Of a stretch of DNA of 64,000 nucleotides, positions 3,872 to 64,000 are shown piece after piece (position 1 is the first letter of the stretch; each line of letters opens with the position of its first letter). Source of the DNA: an uncultured Ignavibacteriota bacterium (GTDB lineage: Bacteria; Bacteroidota; Ignavibacteria; Palsa-1295); NCBI GenBank assembly GCA_903900335.1, contig CAIUMP010000004.1, forward strand, positions 1-64,000, written 5' to 3'. The position numbers were made by a program, and so were the translations under genes. The notes below the pieces were generated by a model. The model was not told the DNA's origin, did no database searches, and saw only the letters and a list, made by a program, of their open reading frames with translations.

Positions 3872-4199
3872 GAAAATTTGCGAATTAATGGGATGTCTGA
3901 ACAGGAAATAGAGTAGATACATAGCGGAATGATGCCGCAATGCGTTCCCGCTGTCCGGCATCTGCTCCGACCTGTTTGTGGCAAGATGATGATCTCGACG
4001 TTTTGGAATGAGTGCGTTTTCGATAGATAGTGGCAGAGTGATTTGACGATCAGCCATGATGGAACTTTCTAATTGATGGTGTGGTCAATTGTCTTTACCC
4101 GCGTAAGGTACCACATCTGTGACCCGATATGCTTGTCCTTGGCCTGGTGGTGGGTTAATATCCAGGAAATTGTTGATGATTAGCTTCTTCAGAGACTGA

Positions 4200-4763
4200 A
4201 TGACTCCTACACTTTTGCTCGTTGATGATTTCTACTCGAATGCTCTCGGCGTTCGGGAGTTCGCGCTATCACTCCCGTTCACGGTGAAGGGCAATTACCC
4301 TGGAGCCCGCACTGAAATTTTGCCAGAGCCACACTTCAGCAATACAAAGGCCCTTTTCGAGGAATTGCTAGGGAAAAAGATCACGTATTGGCCCACGGAA
4401 TATAACACCTCTTATCAGTACACTACCAAGGACTCGAAAAGTTGGATCCATCATGACCCCACGAACTGGGCGGCGGTTTTATACCTTACACCGGACGCCC
4501 CATTGGAATCTGGCACTGCCATCTATCGAAACAAAGAGTCCCGCATCCTGAGGTTTGATCCCCAAGATCCCGCGACGGAGTACAATAACAAGTCTGACTA
4601 CACAACGGATGAGGACAAGTGGGAGCGCGTCGTGACCGTTTCAAATATCTTTAACCGCTTGGTTATGTATCGGGGTGAGTACTACCATCGAAGCATGCTC
4701 GCTGGTTTTGGGGATGATCAATTCAACGGCAGACTCTTTCAGACATTCTTCTTTGACACCTAA
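4200..4763 (+). CDS. 2OG-Fe(II) oxygenase-like protein (DUF6445-like)
   Basis: WIHHDPTNWAAVLYLTPDAPLESGTAIYRNK...NRLVMYRGEYYHRSMLAGFG...GRLFQTFFFD: HxD, distal H and R arrangement of a double-stranded beta-helix oxygenase. Confidence 0.7.
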   Translation: MTPTLLLVDDFYSNALGVREFALSLPFTVKGNYPGARTEILPEPHFSNTKALFEELLGKKITYWPTEYNTSYQYTTKDSKSWIHHDPTNWAAVLYLTPDAPLESGTAIYRNKESRILRFDPQDPATEYNNKSDYTTDEDKWERVVTVSNIFNRLVMYRGEYYHRSMLAGFGDDQFNGRLFQTFFFDT

Positions 4764-4921
4764 GCGAAATTAGTAGTCCTCGCTATCGGGTACATCTCGA
4801 TGGAACTGATGACGATTATCGCATAGTTACTAGCTGAGTCAACAGGCGCACAATCAAAGCGTCTGTGAGGTTCGTCAATATTTATAGTCAGCAAACCGAT
4901 CTAGCGTTGCGGGGCGCAAAT

Positions 4922-54655: not shown

Positions 54656-55138
54656 CTACTTCTTCGGCTGCTGCGGCAGCGAGTCAACGTTCACCATTGG
54701 TTTCTTGTGACCCTGGTGACAGGAGACGCAGGTGATCTCCTCGAATCCCCGCTCGATCTTCTGAAGATACTTCGCATTGATGTCCTTCGTCATCAGGATC
54801 ATCTTGCGCGCGTTCCGTTTCTCGTCTTTTGAATCCGAGACGAAATCCAGATCAGGCTTCTGCCCAGCAGGCGTCTCGTTCTCCACGTGACAGAATCCAC
54901 AGCGTACACCGAGCGATTTCGAATACGTGCGCATTGTATTTTGTAGATCTTCCGGGGATATCTTTTTTGGCAATACCTTCAAATTTTTCGGATGCTCGAA
55001 GAGCGCAAGCATCTTGCGCTGCTGTTCTGCCTTTGCCTCGGGAGTCTGGGAGGGAGTTTGCTGGGCGCTGAGGGGCGCGATCAATATGGTACCAATTGTC
55101 AGTGAAGCGAGAACCGTAACGACACTCTTCTTATTCAT
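54656..55138 (-). CDS. Small c-type cytochrome (two CxxCH motifs)
   Basis: MNKKSVVTVLASLTIGTILIAPLSAQ signal; VRCGFCHVENE and ITCVSCHQGHKKP. ORF track extends to 55609 but the signal peptide supports ~55138. Confidence 0.88.
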   Translation of the reverse strand: MNKKSVVTVLASLTIGTILIAPLSAQQTPSQTPEAKAEQQRKMLALFEHPKNLKVLPKKISPEDLQNTMRTYSKSLGVRCGFCHVENETPAGQKPDLDFVSDSKDEKRNARKMILMTKDINAKYLQKIERGFEEITCVSCHQGHKKPMVNVDSLPQQPKK

Positions 55139-55192
55139 CATAGCGTTGTTGAAAAATAGACCATTCATAATAAAGCGAGCAAAAGCAACAGC

Positions 55193-55798
55193 ATGGCAGG
55201 GAAGAGGAGTTCGGTGATAGAGGAAAATGTGCTTCGGCGATGTGGCTGGGTCTCGGCTGACGCGCTCTATATCAACTACCACGACACTGAGTGGGGCACC
55301 CCCGAGCACGATGATGCCAAACTCCTCGAAAAGCTCATTCTCGATGGCGCACAAGCCGGCCTGAGTTGGATCACGATTCTGCGTAAGCGCGATGGCTATC
55401 GAAGAGCATTTCACGGATTTGATGCGGAAAGGGTCTCTCGATATGGCAAACGGGATTTCGACCGATTGATAAAGGATGAGGGAATCGTCCGAAATAAGTT
55501 GAAGATACGTGCGGCTATCGGCAATGCCCAGGCATACCTGAAGCTGAAAGACGGAGGCGAAAGCTTCAACGACTTCATCTGGCAGTTCACTGGAGGCAAA
55601 ACTCTTCAAAACAGACGAGCTTCGCTGAAGGAAATCCCGACGAGCACGAAGGAATCAGAATTGCTGAGCAAGGAGCTAAAGCGCGCCGGATTCAAGTTTG
55701 TCGGCCCCACCATAATCTATGCGTTCATGCAAGCGATCGGCATGGTCAACGACCACACCTTGGATTGCTTCCGACACCCCGAATGTGGGGGACACTAA
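55193..55798 (+). CDS. tag: DNA-3-methyladenine glycosylase I
   Basis: RCGWVSADALYINYHDTEWGTPEHDDAKLLEKLILDGAQAGLSWITILRKRDGYRRAFHGFD...FKFVGPTIIYAFMQAIGMVNDH. Confidence 0.96.
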   Translation: MAGKRSSVIEENVLRRCGWVSADALYINYHDTEWGTPEHDDAKLLEKLILDGAQAGLSWITILRKRDGYRRAFHGFDAERVSRYGKRDFDRLIKDEGIVRNKLKIRAAIGNAQAYLKLKDGGESFNDFIWQFTGGKTLQNRRASLKEIPTSTKESELLSKELKRAGFKFVGPTIIYAFMQAIGMVNDHTLDCFRHPECGGH

Positions 55799-59590: not shown

Positions 59591-60610
59591 GTGAAGAAAT
59601 TACGGGCGGCAATATTCGGGGCATCGGGATACGCGGGCGGAGAGCTCGTGCGGATCCTGTCGCGGCATCCTTCGGTCAAACTGGAGCAGATGTTTGCGCA
59701 GTCTTCCGTTGGAGCGCTTGTGAGCGATCTGCATCCTTGGCATGATGAGGAGGGCCGAACGTTCGAAGCCTTCTCTGGTAGTGCAGAGACCGATGCAGAG
59801 ATTTGCTTTCTTGCCCTTCCTCACGGAGAAGCCATGGAAGTCGCTCCGGCCCTGCTCGAAGACGGGAAGATCGTTATTGATCTGAGCGGCGATCATCGCC
59901 TGATGGACACCGCCCTGTTTGAGCGGTATTACGGAAGGGCGCAGAAGTCGCCGGAGATCTTGTCGCAAGCCGTGTACGGACTTCCCGAGTGGTCGTTCGA
60001 AAAGATCAGTGCAGCGCGCTTCATTTCGAATCCTGGCTGTTACGCAACGAGTGCCATTCTCGCGCTCGCTCCGTTGCTTGTCGATGGGTTGATCGAACCA
60101 ACTTCGATCATCATCAACTCCATGTCTGGCGTTTCTGGCGCAGGTCGCAGGGCGGCGCTGGAGTACTCCTTCGCCGAAGTGAATGAAAACGTAAGATCGT
60201 ATCGCGTGGGCGATCACCAGCACACACCGGAGATCGAGACAGTGCTGGGTGGGCTGTCATCACAACCAGTGCAGGTCACGTTCATTCCGCACCTCATTCC
60301 GATCACACGCGGCATTTACACCACGATCGTCGCAAATGTGAAAGATGGAACCACAAAGGAAAAGCTGGAAATGTCCATTCACAATCAATACTTCAACAAG
60401 CCATTCGTGCGCTTCTCGCCCACGCGAATCCCAGAGATACGCCGTGTGGCTAGCACCAATTTCATCGACATCGGGCTCCGCTACCAACCGGAGCGCGGAC
60501 AGGTCATTGTCATCTCTTCCATAGACAATCTTATCAAGGGAGCTGCGGGGCAAGCTGTGCAGAACATGAACATCGTCTGCGGATTCAACGAGACCGAGGG
60601 ACTCGTATAA
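59591..60610 (+). CDS. argC: N-acetyl-gamma-glutamyl-phosphate reductase
   Basis: LRAAIFGASGYAGGELVRILSRHPSVKL, FLALPHGEAMEVAPALL, ISNPGCYATSAILALAPL, VSGAGR. Confidence 0.97.
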   Translation: MKKLRAAIFGASGYAGGELVRILSRHPSVKLEQMFAQSSVGALVSDLHPWHDEEGRTFEAFSGSAETDAEICFLALPHGEAMEVAPALLEDGKIVIDLSGDHRLMDTALFERYYGRAQKSPEILSQAVYGLPEWSFEKISAARFISNPGCYATSAILALAPLLVDGLIEPTSIIINSMSGVSGAGRRAALEYSFAEVNENVRSYRVGDHQHTPEIETVLGGLSSQPVQVTFIPHLIPITRGIYTTIVANVKDGTTKEKLEMSIHNQYFNKPFVRFSPTRIPEIRRVASTNFIDIGLRYQPERGQVIVISSIDNLIKGAAGQAVQNMNIVCGFNETEGLV

Positions 60611-60651: not shown

Positions 60652-61878
60652 ATGAGCGAAGCCATTCTCGAGTTTACCGAGATCGACGGAGGCATCACCG
60701 CCCCCAATGGCTTTCGCGCGTCCGGGGTCTATTGTGGTATCCGAAAAGTCAAGAAGGACATCGCGCTTATCACAAGCGACGTACCTGCGAGCGTTGCGGC
60801 TGTCTTTACGCTCAACAAGGTGCTCGCAGCGCCTGTCGTTGTTGATAAGCTACTGCTCAAACAGGGATCCGGCACCTGCTCGGCTATTGTCGTCAACAGC
60901 GGCAATGCGAATGCCTGCACTGGGGAACAGGGAATGAAGGATGCCTGGGAAATGGTGAAGGCCACTTCCACGGCGCTTCAGATTCCCGAAGCCGAAGTCT
61001 TGATCTCGTCCACAGGTGTCATCGGTCAATATCTCCCTATGGACAACGTCCGTCAGGGCATCGAGCAACTCCCGTTTCTGCTGTCAGAAGAAGGCAGCAA
61101 CGATGCCGCTCTTGCTATTATGACCACGGACACCTATGCGAAGGAAGTCGCCGTACTTTTAGAAGTTGGTGGCGTGCCCGTTCGAATCGGTGGAATCGCT
61201 AAAGGCTCAGGCATGATAGCTCCGAACATGGCGACGATGCTTGCATTCCTCTCGACAGATGCGAATGTTCCCCAACCCTTGCTACAGAAGACATTCGGCA
61301 GGCTGATCGACCGCTCTTTCAATCGCATCTCGGTTGATGGGGACACCAGCACGAACGACATGGCGGTGCTGCTTGCTAATGGGATGTCCGGTGCTCCGGC
61401 GTTAAGCGAGGGCACTGTGGACATGAAGCGATTCACGACGGCTCTCGAATTCGTTTTGGTCAAACTCGCCAAGATGATCGCTCGCGATGGCGAAGGCGCG
61501 ACAAAGCTGGTCGAGGTCGTGGTCAGTGGGGCCAGCAGCGAGTCACAAGCGCTTATGGCAGCGCGATCGGTCGCCAACAGCAATCTTGTAAAGACGGCTA
61601 TTCATGGCGAGGATGCCAATTGGGGTCGAATTCTTTGCGCTGTTGGCTATGCTGGAATTGTGTTCGACCCTGCGCAGGTGCAGCTCTCTTTGAACGGTGT
61701 GCCGATTCTTGAAAAGAACTACGGCATCGTCATTGATGAAGCAAAAGCGAAAGACGCCTTTGCCAGCGAGAACATCACGATCAAGATCAATCTCAATCAA
61801 GGCGGCGAAAGCGCAACATTCTGGACCTGTGATCTCTCGAAAGAATACGTCCACATCAACGCCAGTTATCGTTCGTAA
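60652..61878 (+). CDS. argJ: Bifunctional glutamate N-acetyltransferase/amino-acid acetyltransferase
   Basis: AIVVNSGNANACTGEQGMKDAWEM, VLISSTGVIGQYLPMDNV, IGGIAKGSGMIAPNMATMLAFLSTDA, DGDTSTNDMAVLLANG, HGEDANWGRILCAVGYAG. Confidence 0.97.
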   Translation: MSEAILEFTEIDGGITAPNGFRASGVYCGIRKVKKDIALITSDVPASVAAVFTLNKVLAAPVVVDKLLLKQGSGTCSAIVVNSGNANACTGEQGMKDAWEMVKATSTALQIPEAEVLISSTGVIGQYLPMDNVRQGIEQLPFLLSEEGSNDAALAIMTTDTYAKEVAVLLEVGGVPVRIGGIAKGSGMIAPNMATMLAFLSTDANVPQPLLQKTFGRLIDRSFNRISVDGDTSTNDMAVLLANGMSGAPALSEGTVDMKRFTTALEFVLVKLAKMIARDGEGATKLVEVVVSGASSESQALMAARSVANSNLVKTAIHGEDANWGRILCAVGYAGIVFDPAQVQLSLNGVPILEKNYGIVIDEAKAKDAFASENITIKINLNQGGESATFWTCDLSKEYVHINASYRS

Positions 61879-61893
61879 GTAGAACATCGGAAC

Positions 61894-63786
61894 ATGATAG
61901 ATATTCAAACAAAGGAAGACATCCTCATTGGTGCCCTGCCCTATATCCAACGGTATGAGGGAAAGACCTTCGTTATCAAGTATGGTGGCGCGGCGATGAC
62001 CGATGCGGCGCTCAAGGAGTCCTTCGCCAAGGATGTAACACTTCTCAAGAAGATCGGCATCAATGTCGTCATTGTACATGGCGGTGGCAATGCGGTCAGC
62101 GAGCTTTCCACACGACTTGGCATCGAACCGCGTTTCGTCGGCGGGCAACGGTACACAGATCCGGAGACGCTTAAGATGGTGGTTATGACGCTCACCGGGA
62201 CTGTGAACAAGGATGTGGTCGGTCTCATCAATCATGCCGGCGGAAACGCGCTGGGCCTTTCAGGCATTGACAACAATCTTATCACGGCGAAGAAGCACGC
62301 GCCTAAAGGTATTGATCTAGGGCTCGTCGGCGAAGTGGAGTCCGTGAACGCAGAATTCCTCAACTCGCTTATCTCCACTGGTATCATCCCGGTGATCGCT
62401 CCGCTTGGTGTTTCGGCCGACGGAGAGGTCTATAACATCAACGCTGATATAGCCGCCAGCGGCATTGCCCAGGCGCTCTGTGCAGAAAAGCTGTTCTTCT
62501 TGAGCGACACCGAAGGTGTTTTGGTCGAGGGTGAGCTTGTCCCGACGCTGACGAATGCCCGCGCGCAACAGTACATTAAGCAAGGCATCATCTCCGGCGG
62601 GATGATACCCAAGGTGAACGCGGCATTTGAAGCACTCGCCAATGGAGTACATAAGGTTCACTTGATCAACGGGGCTGCCAAGCACTCCTTGTTGCTTGAG
62701 ATCTTCACGCATGAAGGCGTCGGCACACAGATCATCCGTGAGGAGCGCGTCTTCGCAAGTCGCAGCACTGGCGAGCATGTGGCGAAAGGCCTCACACCCA
62801 AGCAAGACCTGCTCGATTTCTCCAACATGACAAAGCAGGATGTCGAAGATTTGCTGCACCTCACGGATGTGCTGAAGAAGTCCGATGCAAAGCCACTCGC
62901 TGGTAAACACGTGACTCTGCTCTTCCAGAAGCCATCTCTGCGGACACGAGTCTCCTTTGAGGTTGGTGTTTCGCAGCTTGGAGGAACCTCGCTCTACCTT
63001 TCCAACGAAGGTATTGGCCTCGGAGAACGGGAGTCGGTTAAAGATGTTGCGCGCGTGTTGTCGTCCTATTCGGATTGCATTGTAGCACGACTATTCGATC
63101 ACAACGTGTTGCTCGGGCTCGCGGAGTATTCGACTGTTCCTGTGGTCAATGCGCTCACGGATCTTTCTCATCCGTGCCAGATACTCGCGGACATGTACAC
63201 CGTGCGCCAGTTTGGGAAACTGCGTCCAGGTCTGAAGGTCGCCTTTATCGGTGATGGGAATAACGTTGCGAATTCATGGATCGAGATGGCGGCGATCTAT
63301 CCAATGCATCTTTCCATCGCCGCGCCGGCAGGGTATCATCCCGATCCGCGCTTGATGGAAAGCGCCAACCGCAGCGGCATCAGTACGATCGAGATCGTCA
63401 GCGACCCGCGCATCGCCGCCGACAGCGCCGACGTGATCTACACCGATGTCTGGACCAGCATGGGACAGGAGGAGGAAAAGCAGGAGCGACTCGCGGCATT
63501 TAAGGACTATCAAGTGAACAAGCCGCTCATCCAGCTCGCGCATCCGAATGCACTCATTATGCACTGCCTTCCAGCGCATCGTGGTGAAGAGATAACAGAT
63601 GAAGCAATGGAATCGAAGAACTCAGTGGTGTTCGTACAAGCGGAGAACCGCCTTCATGTCCAGAAGGCCTTGTTGGCAACGCTTCTTTCGGACACTTCCA
63701 CGCTGGCCGCACTTGGTGTAGATGAGTCGAACGATCCGTCGATGGAGAATTATGAACAAACAGAAACGTCAGTTTACCATTCGTGA
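61894..63786 (+). CDS. argB-argF: Fused acetylglutamate kinase-ornithine carbamoyltransferase
   Basis: N-half FVIKYGGAAM...VVIVHGGGNAVSELSTRLGIEPRFVGGQRYTD...GMIPKVNAA; C-half LLFQKPSLRTRVSFEVG...DLSHPCQILADM...FIGDGNNVANSW...MHCLPAHRGEEI; one uninterrupted 630-aa ORF. Confidence 0.95.
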   Translation: MIDIQTKEDILIGALPYIQRYEGKTFVIKYGGAAMTDAALKESFAKDVTLLKKIGINVVIVHGGGNAVSELSTRLGIEPRFVGGQRYTDPETLKMVVMTLTGTVNKDVVGLINHAGGNALGLSGIDNNLITAKKHAPKGIDLGLVGEVESVNAEFLNSLISTGIIPVIAPLGVSADGEVYNINADIAASGIAQALCAEKLFFLSDTEGVLVEGELVPTLTNARAQQYIKQGIISGGMIPKVNAAFEALANGVHKVHLINGAAKHSLLLEIFTHEGVGTQIIREERVFASRSTGEHVAKGLTPKQDLLDFSNMTKQDVEDLLHLTDVLKKSDAKPLAGKHVTLLFQKPSLRTRVSFEVGVSQLGGTSLYLSNEGIGLGERESVKDVARVLSSYSDCIVARLFDHNVLLGLAEYSTVPVVNALTDLSHPCQILADMYTVRQFGKLRPGLKVAFIGDGNNVANSWIEMAAIYPMHLSIAAPAGYHPDPRLMESANRSGISTIEIVSDPRIAADSADVIYTDVWTSMGQEEEKQERLAAFKDYQVNKPLIQLAHPNALIMHCLPAHRGEEITDEAMESKNSVVFVQAENRLHVQKALLATLLSDTSTLAALGVDESNDPSMENYEQTETSVYHS

Positions 63787-64000
63787 ACTACTCGCGCAAA
63801 AGCGCGTCAGTTCTCAGGAAGATCTGGTCAAGGCGCTCAAGCATGCGGGTATTGAGATTACCCAGGCTACGCTTTCGCGGGATCTGAACGAAATGGGAAT
63901 CGCCCGTATCAGCACACCAGAGGGGCACCGCTATGTCAGCTCTGAAGCAGACGATCTGCGCGTGCACGCACTGGTGAGCTATGAGATCACATCCATTCAG
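63752..64000 (+). CDS. argR: Arginine repressor, 3' end outside the window
   Basis: Read from the sequence: MNKQKRQFTIRELLAQKRVSSQEDLVKALKHAGIEITQATLSRDLNEMGIARISTPEGHRYV; overlaps the end of argB-argF. Confidence 0.93.
   Translation, partial: MNKQKRQFTIRELLAQKRVSSQEDLVKALKHAGIEITQATLSRDLNEMGIARISTPEGHRYVSSEADDLRVHALVSYEITSIQ

Follow-up and report, generated by a model that had tools for sequence, protein, structure and literature searches.

A family-conserved in-frame fusion of acetylglutamate kinase and ornithine carbamoyltransferase in the arginine operon of an uncultured Ignavibacteriota bacterium

Why would a bacterium join two enzymes of arginine biosynthesis that do not act one after the other? 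The question is raised by a locus in a 64,000-nucleotide stretch of DNA (contig CAIUMP010000004.1, positions 1 to 64,000; hereafter the window), where a single forward-strand ORF at 61894-63786 runs from an ATG at 61894 to a TGA ending at 63786, through 630 codons with no internal stop. Its predicted product, a 67.9-kDa protein, consists of an acetylglutamate kinase (AGK, ArgB), a linker, and an ornithine carbamoyltransferase (OTC, ArgF), and the gene is referred to here as argBF. As an earlier note on this DNA rightly observed, the two enzymes catalyze the second and sixth steps of the pathway.

The domain layout is clear. On the forward strand, the AGK domain spans residues 1-282 (61894..62739), a flexible linker covers residues 285-303 (62746..62802), the OTC domain follows at residues 301-600 (62794..63693), and a C-terminal tail of residues 601-630 (63694..63786) closes the protein, with low structural confidence at 613-630. 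Pfam matches to the 630-residue protein are all nearly full length and comprise AA_kinase at 24-259 (158 bits), OTCace_N at 305-439 (146 bits), and OTCace at 446-596 (194 bits). The TIGR00761 argB model matches with 251.7 bits (cut-off 151.3) over model positions 1-230 of 231, and the TIGR00658 OTC model matches with 357.5 bits (cut-off 280.9) over positions 2-303 of 304, in agreement with the earlier note's description of a whole kinase and a whole carbamoyltransferase in one unbroken frame. An error of assembly or sequencing can be ruled out as the source of the join, since 11 separately assembled genomes read alike, and a complete AGK and a complete OTC in one frame are thereby confirmed, at the level of sequence, as a real and family-conserved fusion.

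The kinase half carries the catalytic and substrate-binding motifs of AGK, including K29 within VIKYGG, HGGG, R86, NINAD, and GGMIPK, and residues K29, G31, G32, H62-G65, R86, N181, N183, D185, and K240 are invariant in 11 of 11 fusions. In the AlphaFold model an N-terminal helix (residues 7-19) precedes the strand at 25-30. The AGK half aligns with the structures 2bty and 2buf from residue 9, and the arginine-insensitive E. coli enzyme (1gs5) aligns with it only from residue 26. At the other end of the domain, the C-terminal segment LLEIFTHEGVGTQI, aligned with 2bty, 2jj4, and 2buf, is of the LLEIFTxxGxGT type that lies beside the arginine site; the corresponding motif, EIFTHEGVGTQI at residues 269-280, is invariant among the fusions. 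Arginine-inhibited hexameric AGKs share an N-terminal extension and form D3 rings, with arginine bound beside the N-helix, in a site also close to the last helix and strand (PMC3329491). By these features, the AGK half is probably of the arginine-inhibited hexameric type and the enzyme probably arginine-sensitive, which suits the earlier proposal of arginine feedback or stoichiometry as possible reasons for the fusion. As a separate observation, relatives of family f4 (L021/L085 of G052, L022 of G034, and L030 of G025) carry an OTC of the f1 kind next to a divergent AGK; this kinase shows no alignment over the N-terminal helix region and is without the EIFTxEGxGT motif, which suggests that an arginine-sensitive kinase was replaced or lost there.

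The second half is readily identified as an OTC, scoring 401 and 357 bits as such versus 140 bits as an aspartate transcarbamylase, 164 as an acetylornithine transcarbamylase, and 264 as a putrescine transcarbamylase (cut-off 500). The motifs SLRTR, HPCQ, and HCLPAHRGEE, reported in the earlier note, were found at residues 348, 426, and 557, along with DVWTSMG at 518, and SLRTR, HPCQ, SMG, and HCLP are invariant in all 11 fusions. The AlphaFold monomer shows two confident domains separated by a disordered linker at 285-303, with a TM score of 0.90 between the AGK half and the arginine-complexed Thermotoga enzyme 2bty, and of 0.94 between the OTC half and plant OTC 8qeu. The pTM of 0.58 means that the relative placement of the two domains is not predicted. 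The linker, first put at about ten residues, is instead about 19 residues long, judging from a pLDDT below 50 at 285-303 and from the 18 residues that lie between the query segments, and both its length and its sequence vary among relatives.

The fusion gene sits in an arginine operon of the order argC-argJ-argBF-argR-argG-argH, with argG and argH just past the window end. Upstream on the same strand are argC (59591..60610; N-acetyl-gamma-glutamyl-phosphate reductase, TIGR01850) and argJ (60652..61878; bifunctional ornithine acetyltransferase/N-acetylglutamate synthase, NF003802 and TIGR00120), and 15 nt separate the end of argJ from the start of argBF. Downstream, the arginine repressor gene argR (63752..64000, +, continuing past the window end) likely starts at an ATG at 63752, inside the fusion tail, whose last 12 codons overlap it; over this overlap (63752-63786) argR is read in another frame than argBF. 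Although most of the tail varies, its closing YEQTxxTVxHS is conserved, probably on account of the argR overlap. Elsewhere in the window, the C-terminal part of a reverse-strand product (54656-55609) matches PF02276, the photosynthetic reaction-centre cytochrome c family, over only 50 residues; the protein is likely to be a small cytochrome of the c type, and the match is no sign of photosynthesis.

In the whole source genome, which is 4.0 Mb in size and 100% complete, no second AGK was found, the other amino-acid kinases being two aspartokinase-like proteins and a UMP kinase. Nor was a second OTC found there, the sole other transcarbamylase being the aspartate carbamoyltransferase PyrB, which adjoins pyrC (identified by reading). 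The fusion is therefore the only candidate for both steps, and probably carries on the ordinary jobs of both enzymes. A second, divergent aspartokinase-like protein (L003:931-2367, reverse strand) scores 181 bits with TIGR00657, below the cut-off of 208.7.

How widespread is the arrangement? A stop-free fusion was found in all 11 genomes of family f1 with an intact locus (G000-G008, G010, and G012), representing four genera and proteins 58-91% identical. Two f1 members were left out: in G009 the contig ends inside OTC, and in G011 (93% complete) argJ, argG, and argBF are all missing, though same-genus G007 has them. The whole cluster may be absent from G011 or simply unassembled, making it possibly an arginine auxotroph or a genome with a lost assembly piece. 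In G003, a second full fusion (G003:C27:3849-5753), 76% identical to that of the window, was encountered; the contamination estimate for this genome is 7%, and the extra copy probably belongs to another member of the genus that was binned with it.

The genomes covered were 100 relatives, 391 of the class, 396 from the phylum, and 98 of the sister class (the class of G398). Any fused match would head the match list, and among the matches listed for the 100 relatives and the 391 class, 396 phylum, and 98 sister-class genomes, no stop-free fusion was seen outside f1. In those other lineages argB and argF are often neighbours, with stop codons between them. Beyond the phylum, no fusion was found in a peptide-pattern scan of genome contigs, a method that finds close relatives, or in plasmid records. 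The same domain order, looked for elsewhere, is kept in one family, and the searched collections yielded no example beyond it.

Several candidates were set aside along the way. Single long matches in G097, G203, G315, G241, G176, G222, G367, and the f37/f50 genomes proved to be separate genes; every junction read among them has a stop between the domains, and the remaining matches were listed with internal stops. A one-piece match in Aeromonas caviae (18-590) consists of two unfused ORFs, argB at 4010-4789 and argF at 4814-5731 of L109. In a Planctomycetota locus (L052) argF precedes argB in a different frame, again unfused, and in Persicobacter (L110) a separate carbamoyltransferase gene lies ahead of argB.

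Whether the continuous frame actually yields one polypeptide deserves particular attention. Two proteins could conceivably persist if translation also began internally, at the OTC domain or close to it, or if the product were processed; the fusion would then be only apparent. The window does have an in-frame GTG (residue 290) and ATG (residue 309) near the junction, and an ATG occurs at the position equivalent to 309 across the whole genus g1. Against this, no Shine-Dalgarno-like sequence precedes either codon, and the ATG of the 309 type sits within the OTC domain itself. Moreover, the junctions of L015 and L016 contain no ATG, GTG, or TTG, and L014 is without a common start codon near the OTC start. 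Two separate products are quite improbable on this evidence, and internal initiation in genus g1 is unlikely. The linkers of the 11 fusions, 258 codons in all, contain no stop, whereas shuffling their letters would lead one to expect about 10. If each genus is represented by a single sequence, 2.2 linker stops are expected and the chance of finding none is 0.10, so that this is a modest test alone. Because the ancestral OTC start codon was lost in every fusion, the sequences are best read as encoding one polypeptide.

That ancestral state can be recognized in related families. In f3, f17, f18, f37, and f50, argB and argF are adjacent yet separate, with TAA, TAG, or TGA between them and a spacing of -4 to about 97 nt; the stop follows ...EIFTDEGIGT.., and the OTC typically begins M(K/N)KDF(L/I)S. 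Where examined, the gene order of these unfused neighbours is the same as in the fusion operon, and their arrangement would represent the expected pre-fusion state. The fusion junction, ...EIFTHEGVGTQII-linker-KQDLLDF, contains neither the stop of the kinase gene nor the OTC start, and the ancestral start M(K/N)KDFLS has been replaced in 11 of 11 fusions. In three f37 loci (L112, L115, and L118) argB and argF lie 6 nt apart in the same frame, a near-fusion state, and the OTC of these loci has an N-terminal extension of about 12 residues ahead of a conserved KRDFL start.

In the AGK tree the fused forms make up one clade (SH-aLRT 97). In the free OTC tree, four fused members fall with another group at a moderate bootstrap of 84, hinting at two origins of the fusion, but an OTC tree constrained to a single fused clade is not rejected (AU p = 0.248). 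A single fusion event is the simplest reading of the trees. Among the pairs measured, dN is 0.035-0.126 in both domains and dS is near-saturated, silent sites being near saturation even within a genus, and the linker has a dN of 0.28-0.97. By this measure, both domains are under strong purifying selection and the linker is far less constrained.

Taken together, the best explanation, and one held with good confidence, is that argBF is a fusion-born, bifunctional ArgB-ArgF enzyme, probably with an arginine-sensitive second step, that holds its two activities at a fixed 1:1 stoichiometry and is plausibly assembled from an AGK hexamer and OTC trimers. Neighbouring argB and argF genes of an argC-J-B-F-R-G-H operon would have fused once, in the common ancestor of one family, through loss of the argB stop codon and of the start codon of argF, and the stretch between the two domains is now a disordered linker of roughly 14-30 residues. 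One chain would then be made with both activities retained, and arginine would bind the AGK half and inhibit step 2. AGKs of the arginine-inhibited type form D3 hexamers, and OTC, like other transcarbamylases, forms trimers (PMC4581275). A particle of six chains would therefore be compatible with the symmetry and could comprise one AGK hexamer bearing two OTC trimers, and step 2, which controls flux, and step 6 would thereby be fixed at 1:1. A precedent for trimers on an AGK ring is offered by the cyanobacterial PII protein, whose trimers cap both ends of the ring (PMC6243067).

Did the fusion bring any benefit? It is conceivable that it did not, and that a stop codon was simply lost from a closely packed operon. 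Each domain, held by a flexible linker, could still fold and oligomerize alone, so the change would have been tolerated; drift would have fixed it, and reversal would be difficult. Such a neutral account shares its origin and bifunctionality with the best explanation and differs in the benefit alone. It is in keeping with a linker that is disordered and fast-evolving, with argB and argF already adjacent in relatives and sometimes overlapping by 4 nt, and with an argR start that also overlaps the fusion, so that the operon appears generally compacted. The lack of any re-splitting in 11 genomes with near-saturated silent sites counts against it, although retention alone is no proof of benefit because re-splitting needs a new stop, a new start, and a new ribosome site. 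A neutral fusion of this kind has a chance only a little short of even.

A further possibility is allosteric coupling, in which the binding of arginine or of a substrate at the C-terminal lobe of AGK would be signalled through the linker to OTC, or OTC trimers would limit expansion of the AGK ring in the manner of PII. The arginine-site region of such AGKs directly precedes the linker (PMC3329491), its motif is present and invariant here, and PII trimers on the ring are known to relieve arginine inhibition (PMC6243067). However, between its conserved ends the linker has anywhere from 17 to 31 residues and no conserved sequence, and coupling of this kind is unlikely. One can also picture, speculatively, a symmetric twelve-domain enzyme in which an arginine-sensing AGK hexamer holds a covalently attached OTC trimer docked on each of its faces, and in which arginine binding or OTC docking alters the other activity. 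If true, this unlikely assembly would be a covalent counterpart of PII-AGK, and through it the regulated entry step would be coupled to the step consuming carbamoyl phosphate.

Substrate channelling, finally, would draw on physical linkage only. Three enzymes, ArgC, ArgD, and ArgJ, work at steps between the kinase and the carbamoyltransferase, and channelling is therefore no reason for the fusion, as the earlier note had also held of simple channelling; what step 2 makes is not what step 6 consumes, and argC and argJ are separate genes here. Direct transfer between the two active sites is accordingly far-fetched. With a linker that looks too variable for rigid allosteric coupling, any benefit is likelier to lie in stoichiometry, co-localization, or stability. 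Stoichiometry, co-assembly, and a neutral fusion stand as live options, which sequence alone cannot separate.

Other arginine-pathway fusions provide a useful context. The fungal ARG5,6 kinase has an extra DUF619 domain. Like argBF, ARG5,6 carries AGK in one frame with another arginine-pathway enzyme, but its partner is acetylglutamyl-phosphate reductase (step 3) and not OTC (step 6), and since argC stands apart from the fusion, the AGK-reductase joining of ARG5,6 is not found here. The fungal polyprotein is, moreover, cleaved in mitochondria (PMC3329491), whereas the argBF product is not known to be cleaved. NAGS-K (argA-B) of Xanthomonas and Maricaulis is likewise a bacterial bifunctional enzyme with an AGK-type domain (PMC1865377). 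It pairs the kinase with an acetyltransferase domain, covering steps 1 and 2, and has no transcarbamylase; Pfam found no C-terminal acetyltransferase domain of the NAGS-K type in argBF. ArgH(A) combines argininosuccinate lyase with acetylglutamate synthase, components unlike those of argBF. Found in marine gammaproteobacteria, it resembles argBF as a fusion of non-consecutive arginine enzymes (PMC1382215). In the pyrimidine pathway, the fused catalytic-regulatory aspartate transcarbamylase of Thermotoga maritima also places a trimeric transcarbamylase covalently on a partner of different oligomeric state (cited in PMC6022934), but that partner is a regulatory chain and not an enzyme. The cyanobacterial PII-AGK complex, with trimers on both faces of the hexamer ring (PMC6243067), is a possible analogue of argBF assembly, although it is non-covalent and PII is a signalling protein. 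A last comparison is with the separate, adjacent argB and argF genes of f3, f17, f37, and f50. These have the same gene order and domains mostly 54-62% identical, but they are two distinct genes, the first closed by a stop and the second opened by its own start.

No report of an AGK-OTC fusion was found in the open-access literature, and none appears in the passages retrieved by keyword from two transcarbamylase reviews. AGK-OTC is a new pairing beside the known AGK-reductase, AGK-acetyltransferase, and ArgH-ArgA fusions, and it seems to be undescribed. Automatic protein databases may already label such entries multifunctional fusion proteins. The argBF gene also shows that best-hit annotation may name just one of two joined enzymes and count its partner as missing, which is a general problem (PMC7311316).

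With argBF, the small set of arginine-pathway fusions gains a pairing of the step usually under feedback control with one that comes four reactions further on. This amounts to a natural test of what a fusion is for when channelling plays no part, be it stoichiometry, assembly, cross-regulation, or nothing, and the relatives with separate, adjacent genes offer a ready before-and-after comparison.
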